64,000 nucleotides of DNA from Porphyrobacter sp. (GTDB taxonomy: Bacteria > Pseudomonadota > Alphaproteobacteria > Sphingomonadales > Sphingomonadaceae). How positions within the stretch are numbered: the stretch's first letter is position 1; every line of letters begins with the position of its first letter. The stretch lies in contig JAGIBN010000003.1 in NCBI GenBank assembly GCA_017744315.1, positions 124,001 through 188,000 of the forward strand, given 5' to 3'. Both the position numbers and the translations under genes were made by a program. Below, in pieces: positions 3,998 through 4,028 of the stretch. Below the pieces are notes generated by a model. It was not told the origin of the DNA and did not search any database. It was given only the letters and a program-made list of their open reading frames with translations.

Positions 3998-4028
3998 GTA
4001 TGCGAAAATTGTATGCGCCGCATACAAT
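3998..4028. promoter_or_regulatory. Operator: TTGTATGCGCCGCATACAA plus an extra half-site
   Basis: TTGTATGCG and CGCATACAA (4009-4027) form a perfect inverted repeat about one central C, and the flanking A and T extend the symmetry to 4008-4028. A third GTATGCG copy at 3998-4004 lies 13 bp from the left arm in direct orientation. The site sits 42-60 bp upstream of ligM and about 70 bp upstream of the divergent VOC gene. It is the best copy of a motif found at three other promoters here (20809, 23289, 42075). Repressor binding is likely from its position; the regulator is not identified. Confidence 0.75.

Follow-up and report, generated by a model that had tools for sequence, protein, structure and literature searches.

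A putative DesR-type operator shared by four aromatic-catabolism promoters in Porphyrobacter sp.

A 64,000-nucleotide stretch of Porphyrobacter sp. (contig JAGIBN010000003.1, positions 124,001 to 188,000), referred to here as the window, carries four related 19-bp sites in control regions of aromatic catabolism. They stand at ligM, at a TonB-dependent receptor gene, between an NTF2-like gene and a short-chain dehydrogenase (SDR) gene, and between two divergent lig ring-cleavage operons. Judged from sequence comparison, it is highly probable that an orthologue of DesR, the MarR-type repressor of Sphingobium sp. SYK-6, encoded on contig C16 of the same genome, binds these four sites and keeps the adjoining genes (ligM, the receptor gene, both lig operons and the NTF2-like/SDR genes) repressed in the absence of an aromatic inducer. 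By analogy with SYK-6, that inducer is probably vanillate or syringate. Four computed results support this: the sites match the matrix, the regulator is orthologous to DesR, sites and regulator occur together across genomes, and the lig site and ligR exclude one another in the genomes examined. Coordinates and site scores are collected in Table 1.

Putative operator sites in the window and the genome

All four sites lie where an earlier note on this DNA had placed them, and the one at 23289 departs from TTGT-N11-ACAA by a single base, as that note had said. The ligM site, TTGTATGCGCCGCATACAA, has two perfect 9-bp arms. The receptor site reads TTGTCAGTAGTGCATACAA, or TTGTATGCACTACTGACAA when the four are set in a common orientation; the NTF2-like/SDR site, TTGTATGCAACACTAACGA, ends in ACGA, one base away from TTGT-N11-ACAA; and the lig site, ATGTATGTGTTGCTTACAA (TTGTAAGCAACACATACAT in the common orientation), begins with ATGT. 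The shared TTGT-N11-ACAA that had been proposed holds in part: the four sites are the four top matrix matches, but the exact motif is present in two of them (4009 and 20809), and the A at the first base of 42075 had gone unmentioned. Across the window, the exact motif has three matches against 0.21 expected, and three or more were obtained in 0 of 100 shuffles. The third match, at 20886-20904 (TTGTGTTACATCATGACAA), 59 bp from the TonB operator, receives -11.1 bits from the matrix and was set aside as unsupported.

The symmetric weight matrix was built from 15 distinct operators at 37 named loci of C16-type MarR genes. These training sites are the MarR repressor's own operators in other genomes, and the window contributed none. 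Scanned over the window, this matrix places the four sites first to fourth, with the fifth match at 4.1 bits; maxima in 30 Markov-random windows average 7.35 bits, the highest being 13.2. A one-direction matrix again gives the top four places to the same sites (32.6, 29.8, 19.2 and 13.8 bits), with random maxima averaging 7.0 and reaching 15.8. The lig site at 42075 stands clear of the highest random maximum in the symmetric version only.

Three genome-wide pattern scans combined with matrix scoring, short of an exhaustive matrix scan, yielded eight sites of at least 16 bits, namely the four of the window and four elsewhere, with the next best at 13.5 bits or less. While the earlier note had named numerous matches within coding regions as an argument against a regulon, all eight sites lie outside genes on our reading. 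An open-frame check flags four of the eight: three stand in extensions 5' of the likely start (ligM, the NTF2-like gene and an aldehyde dehydrogenase gene), and the fourth in a frame on the opposite strand of an rmuC-like gene.

The candidate regulator

A genome search with a related pattern led to a further site at C16:102854, within the promoter region shared by two divergent genes, one for a lignostilbene dioxygenase and one for a MarR protein, the latter followed by a gene for a transporter of the major facilitator superfamily (MFS). The dioxygenase scores 883.2 with NF053778 (cut-off 800), and the MarR protein passes NF053777, a family named after Saro_0803, with 236.4 bits (cut-off 200). 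In all 37 named loci, TTGTATGY-N3-RC-N2-AC-N-A is found upstream of the C16-type MarR gene, and the divergent dioxygenase gene is kept beside it just as consistently (37/37). Within a relatives set of 59 genomes, comprising this one (G000) and 58 relatives, the DesR promoter carries the site in each of the 11 genomes with DesR, this one included (18.0-29.4 bits).

According to the available portion of the published work, SYK-6 DesR binds IR-M (ligM), IR-B (desB) and IR-R (desR), and vanillate and syringate release it; at ligM, which it represses, the binding site and the -35 region overlap (PMC6888825). A search for IR-B and IR-M in 397 family genomes gave a match in 13, and both repeats in two of these, G172 and G414. 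In G172, IR-R lies between a dioxygenase gene (82% identity to that of this genome) and a MarR gene (56%), after which comes an MFS gene (79%). Read from a TTG start, this MarR protein has 172 residues and IR-R stands 76-62 nt upstream, as published for SYK-6; because this start puts IR-R at the published distance, G172 was taken as SYK-6. The matrix gives the published SYK-6 operators 28.5 (IR-M), 26.3 (IR-R) and 19.5 bits (IR-B), and SYK-6 DesR passes NF053777 with 237.1 bits, as the C16 protein does. On 56% identity and the same neighbourhood, the C16 MarR protein is identified as orthologous to SYK-6 DesR. One residue differs between the two in the stretch MDRATTM(T/A)IVNRL, the DNA-reading helix as generally placed in MarR proteins. 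By analogy with SYK-6 ligM, a DesR dimer would span the half-sites TTGTATGC and GCATACAA and block transcription, the promoters remaining occluded until an aromatic ligand binds. An exact SYK-6 IR-B 15-mer also occurs at C11:589700-589714 (loci L195 and L233), at what appears by eye to be the start of a 16S rRNA gene; it scores 10.0 bits and was set aside as probably a chance match.

The alternative that survives best, though we hold it to be unlikely, accepts DesR as the binding protein and makes a stilbene its inducer, as for Saro_0803, giving a regulon triggered by lignostilbene instead of vanillate. The position of the regulator gene, divergent from the lignostilbene dioxygenase gene, fits this arrangement. 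In the accessible part of the work on Saro_0803 of Novosphingobium aromaticivorans DSM 12444, the protein responds to resveratrol, binds it through the aromatic residues F30, F43, F47 and W61, and has an inverted repeat written GCAATA-N6-TATTGC (PMC10046596). Invariant F17, F30, F34 and W48 in our alignment, compared for spacing alone, are spaced as these four, so the effector could be an aromatic acid or a stilbene. However, SYK-6 DesR, in the same gene neighbourhood, is described as responding to vanillate and syringate and as controlling ligM (PMC6888825, as far as available). As a separate observation, the letters GCAATA, an arm of the repeat published for Saro_0803, occur in TTGTATGCAATACTAACGA, the operator of locus L053 in Novosphingobium sp. 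B 225.

It is improbable that another MarR protein of this genome reads the sites. A PF12802 search gives 21 MarR-like matches, 16 of them above cut-off, and at the start of one such gene, on contig C10, stands a related palindrome, TTGTATCCAATGACTACAA, of 10.7 bits. Among the 21 loci, however, C16 alone has a site above 11 bits, and the next scores are 10.7 and 9.7. The MarR gene at 51836, put forward in the earlier note, was abandoned as the regulator, as its protein reaches 61.6 bits against the family cut-off of 200 and its 3.2-kb locus contains no site at up to four mismatches. The C10 protein is similarly distant (62.3 bits, 30% identity to DesR), and the next most DesR-like MarR protein of the genome scores 43.7 bits versus 318.3 for that of C16. 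At C10 (L024 1791-1809, about 213.5 kb into the contig), a second palindrome, TGTATCCATGGATACA, lies just past TTGTATCCAATGACTACAA; the two may represent a paralogous operator.

The number of sites, moreover, follows the DesR orthologues across genomes. Such orthologues (at least 58% identity) occur in 11 of the 59 genomes; LigM orthologues (at least 75%) occur in ten, every one among those 11, and NTF2-like orthologues (at least 70%) in exactly the 11. Counted with a degenerate pattern that tolerates a single mismatch at most, the 11 DesR-bearing family genomes have 62 forward matches (3-12 each) against 2 for the reversed control, and the 24 family genomes lacking DesR have 6 against 11. Another 24 genomes outside the family were excluded from this count because background dominates there (44 forward, 76 reversed). 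Of the eight matches counted for this genome, one is a weak C10 place of 10.8 bits, and the aldehyde-dehydrogenase site on C16 is not among them.

Conservation of the sites and probable control of the lig operons

Conservation in related genomes, which the earlier note had proposed as a check, is seen at ligM and, in eight of 16 genomes, at the lig operons; it is partial at the NTF2-like/SDR pair and absent at the TonB receptor. All ten LigM orthologues have the site, at 19-30 bits and 59-72 bp before the start. Across 11 orthologous NTF2-like/SDR loci it is strong (19-28 bits) in six (G000, G001, G002, G003, G005 and G007). Mean column identity within the site compared with its flanks is 0.87 versus 0.56 at ligM (10 genomes), 0.91 versus 0.49 at lig (8) and 0.80 versus 0.60 at the NTF2-like/SDR pair (10), all figures being raised by three close sister species among these genomes.

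A lig locus was recognized by a DUF1932/lig match at E <= 4e-35, which gave 16 genomes; loci L117-L119 (distant paralogues, E 1.5e-7 to 4.4e-5) and L120 (a second fragment in G030) were dropped. The operator is present in eight of the 16 (G000-G005, G013 and G018), and a genome-wide search at E <= 1e-40 found no LigR homologue in any of these eight, this genome included (for G013, 33 of 38 candidates were scored). In seven others (G006, G007, G016, G019, G030, G033 and G036), a LysR gene, counted as ligR, adjoins the DUF1932 gene, and no operator was found within the sequence retrieved, which reached up to 1.5 kb upstream. In G054, operator and LigR were both undetected; this assembly is 81% complete and that of G002 86%. 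SYK-6 likewise has a LysR gene between its DUF1932 gene and ligK, with no operator there. The lig-operon operator and the ligR gene are mutually exclusive in the genomes examined. Furthermore, the LigR box, published as TT-N-GC-N6-TTAT (PMC12710314, available in part), stands before ligK in SYK-6 and in G007 and has no match anywhere in the 64-kb window.

In SYK-6, LigR controls ligJABC and ligKUI and responds to protocatechuate and gallate, as stated in the available part of PMC6888825. Since operator and LigR divide the 16 genomes eight to seven, and since LigR runs these operons in SYK-6, DesR likely replaced LigR at the lig operons in this lineage, as far as sequence comparison can indicate. 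We lean, with less assurance, towards a takeover in which Croceibacterium and two neighbouring genera lost LigR and a DesR operator came to stand in its stead at the promoter between the ring-cleavage operons. With DesR in place of LigR, an upstream substrate, rather than protocatechuate or gallate, would induce ring cleavage. A search limited to open-licence PMC papers found no published account of such a takeover.

The earlier note also listed a LysR activator as a candidate, and the T-N11-A spacing of the sites, together with the role of LigR in SYK-6, is compatible with LigR or another LysR-type regulator binding them. This is very improbable, given that no LigR homologue was detected in the eight genomes with a lig operator at the threshold and coverage stated above, that the window has no LigR box, and that the motif precedes a DesR-type MarR gene in every named locus and every relatives-set genome with DesR. 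Chance palindromes in intergenic DNA, to which the two inexact sites and the unconserved TonB site might point, can practically be dismissed and are contradicted for three of the four sites, in view of scores far exceeding those of random windows and of ligM and lig sites conserved above their flanks.

Several observations nevertheless weigh against control of all these genes by DesR. The resveratrol response and differently written repeat of Saro_0803, a member of the same family, mean that the effector here may differ, and the C10 palindrome and the partial LigR coverage of G013 belong on the same side. With the one-direction matrix, the 13.8 bits of the lig site fall under the highest random maximum, and a simple sigma-70 scan of 3940-4110 and 42040-42200 found no promoter. 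The regulator gene resides on a different contig from the window. In SYK-6, neither the lig operons nor the NTF2-like/SDR pair, both checked, have such a site. Among relatives, the NTF2-like/SDR site is weaker in G004 (14.0 bits), G013 and G018 (8.2 and 8.9 bits) and lost in G019, and G030 has only one 956 bp upstream. The TonB site is unconserved: nine further TonB loci, none above 56% identity, offer a single weak site of 13.5 bits, in G030. In addition, a five-protein tree puts G019 among the operator genomes, with supports of 39 and 41, and grouping those genomes in a single clade is not rejected (p-AU 0.434), so that LigR may have given way to DesR once or more than once. Even so, the proposal that a DesR-like MarR protein unites uptake, O-demethylation and ring cleavage in a single regulon is supported by the matrix, the orthology and the co-occurrence.

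If this interpretation is true, a circuit based on a product-sensing activator became one based on a substrate-sensing repressor at the ring-cleavage promoter, and a single regulator governs ring cleavage, O-demethylation, uptake and one-carbon metabolism. The reading further predicts that the DesR regulon for lignin monomers is broad, and the window would offer a natural and directly testable case of a core catabolic pathway passing between two unrelated regulator families. The operator matrix is portable and could serve the annotation or engineering of lignin-converting sphingomonads.

Genomic setting and known systems

Table 1. Putative operator sites, their neighbouring genes in the window, and sites on other contigs
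Feature	Position	Strand	Details
operator 1 (DesR-type, putative)	4009..4027	.	ligM/VOC divergent promoter; 42-60 bp 5' of ligM ATG; 26.1 bits
operator 2 (DesR-type, putative)	20809..20827	-	precedes TonB receptor; 25.0 bits
operator 3 (DesR-type, putative)	23289..23307	+	separates NTF2-like gene from SDR; 27.0 bits
operator 4 (DesR-type, putative)	42075..42093	.	separates divergent lig operons; 21.9 bits
ligM, vanillate/3-O-methylgallate O-demethylase	2555..3967	-	NCBIfam NF047885, 860.9 bits (cut-off 580)
VOC (glyoxalase superfamily) protein, divergent from ligM	4096..4497	+	Pfam PF00903
TonB-dependent receptor	18415..20760	-	Pfam PF00593, PF07715
amidohydrolase, downstream of NTF2-like genes	20905..22038	-	Pfam PF04909
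NTF2-like (SnoaL_4) protein, first leftward gene from operator 3	22568..23266	-	Pfam PF13577
short-chain dehydrogenase, first rightward gene from operator 3	23341..24270	+	Pfam PF00106
ligC	37524..38513	-	named by position and SYK-6 orthology; 89% identity
ligB, class III extradiol dioxygenase beta subunit	38570..39463	-	NF009903, 496.9 bits (cut-off 317); 85% identity to SYK-6
ligA	39465..39896	-	named by position and SYK-6 orthology; 82% identity
ligJ	40192..41217	-	named by position and SYK-6 orthology; 81% identity, same gene order
DUF1932 NAD-binding protein, first gene of leftward lig operon	41240..42052	-	Pfam PF09130; 52% identity to SYK-6 counterpart
ligK, 4-carboxy-4-hydroxy-2-oxoadipate aldolase, first gene of rightward lig operon	42184..42858	+	TIGR02798, 384.2 bits (cut-off 304.5)
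ligU, 4-oxalomesaconate tautomerase	42849..43919	+	NF033377, 528.7 bits (cut-off 440)
ligI	43916..44785	+	named by position and SYK-6 orthology; 82% identity
MarR gene, probably not the regulator	51836..52279	+	61.6 bits with NF053777 (cut-off 200); no site nearby
site at desR/lignostilbene dioxygenase	C16:102854		27.9 bits
site in upstream region of aldehyde dehydrogenase	C16		24.9 bits
site at divergent aldehyde dehydrogenase/GMC (glucose-methanol-choline) oxidoreductase pair	C5		23.8 bits
site at formate-tetrahydrofolate ligase; divergent gene rmuC-like (named by eye)	C13		16.3 bits, weakest of the eight

The site on C13 touches one-carbon metabolism, tetrahydrofolate being the acceptor of the methyl group from LigM according to the portion available of PMC6888825. 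Its orthologues before formate-tetrahydrofolate ligase score 21.4 bits in G001 and G005 and 22.0 in G019, and the C5 site was found again in G001 and G005. In G007, sites adjoin folD, purU (divergent from ligM), a methionine-synthase-like gene (divergent from desA) and a beta-etherase gene. The window has a methionine-synthase-like gene at 15975-17105, at which the matrix scan of the window found no site; its homologues in G004 and G019 (84-85% identity) adjoin a DesR-type site, which lies between homologues of this gene and of the window's pyrroloquinoline quinone (PQQ)-type dehydrogenase gene. A DesA-type paralogue of this genome (C16:22610) is without a site, which one of ten such paralogues has, in G007. 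In that relative, a TonB gene sharing 46% identity with the window's is also preceded by a site, of 19.2 bits.

Some further features were observed. Nine DesR-type sites of at least 18 bits fall within 80 kb of G007 (C1:645001-725000, L245-L248), a stretch that holds desR, ligM, desA, NTF2-like/SDR genes, TonB receptors, the beta-etherase gene, folD, purU and the lig operons. At 13599-17105 of the window, the PQQ-type dehydrogenase and methionine-synthase-like genes are divergent, with 27 bp between their annotated starts, and at 34230-35066 a single protein joins a LuxR-type helix-turn-helix to a DUF4019 domain.

Three described systems resemble the one proposed here. LigR, the LysR activator of protocatechuate 4,5-cleavage genes in SYK-6 and N. 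aromaticivorans (PMC12710314, available in part), is comparable in that SYK-6 LigR controls the orthologous lig operons; the present case differs, with LigR undetected in the genome and its box missing from the window. Saro_0803 shares the NCBI family NF053777 and the position divergent from a stilbene-cleaving oxygenase gene (PMC10046596), but the available part of that work covers the nov1 promoter, resveratrol as ligand and a differently written inverted repeat; to judge from the letters, the published site may be the same operator in another register. The closest counterpart is SYK-6 DesR (SLG_12870; PMC6888825, available in part), with which the orthologous regulator, its neighbourhood, the operator matrix and the sites before ligM and desR are all common. 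Unlike in SYK-6, sites here also precede the lig ring-cleavage operons, the TonB receptor gene, two aldehyde-dehydrogenase loci and the NTF2-like/SDR pair; a further one, on another contig, belongs to formate-tetrahydrofolate ligase.
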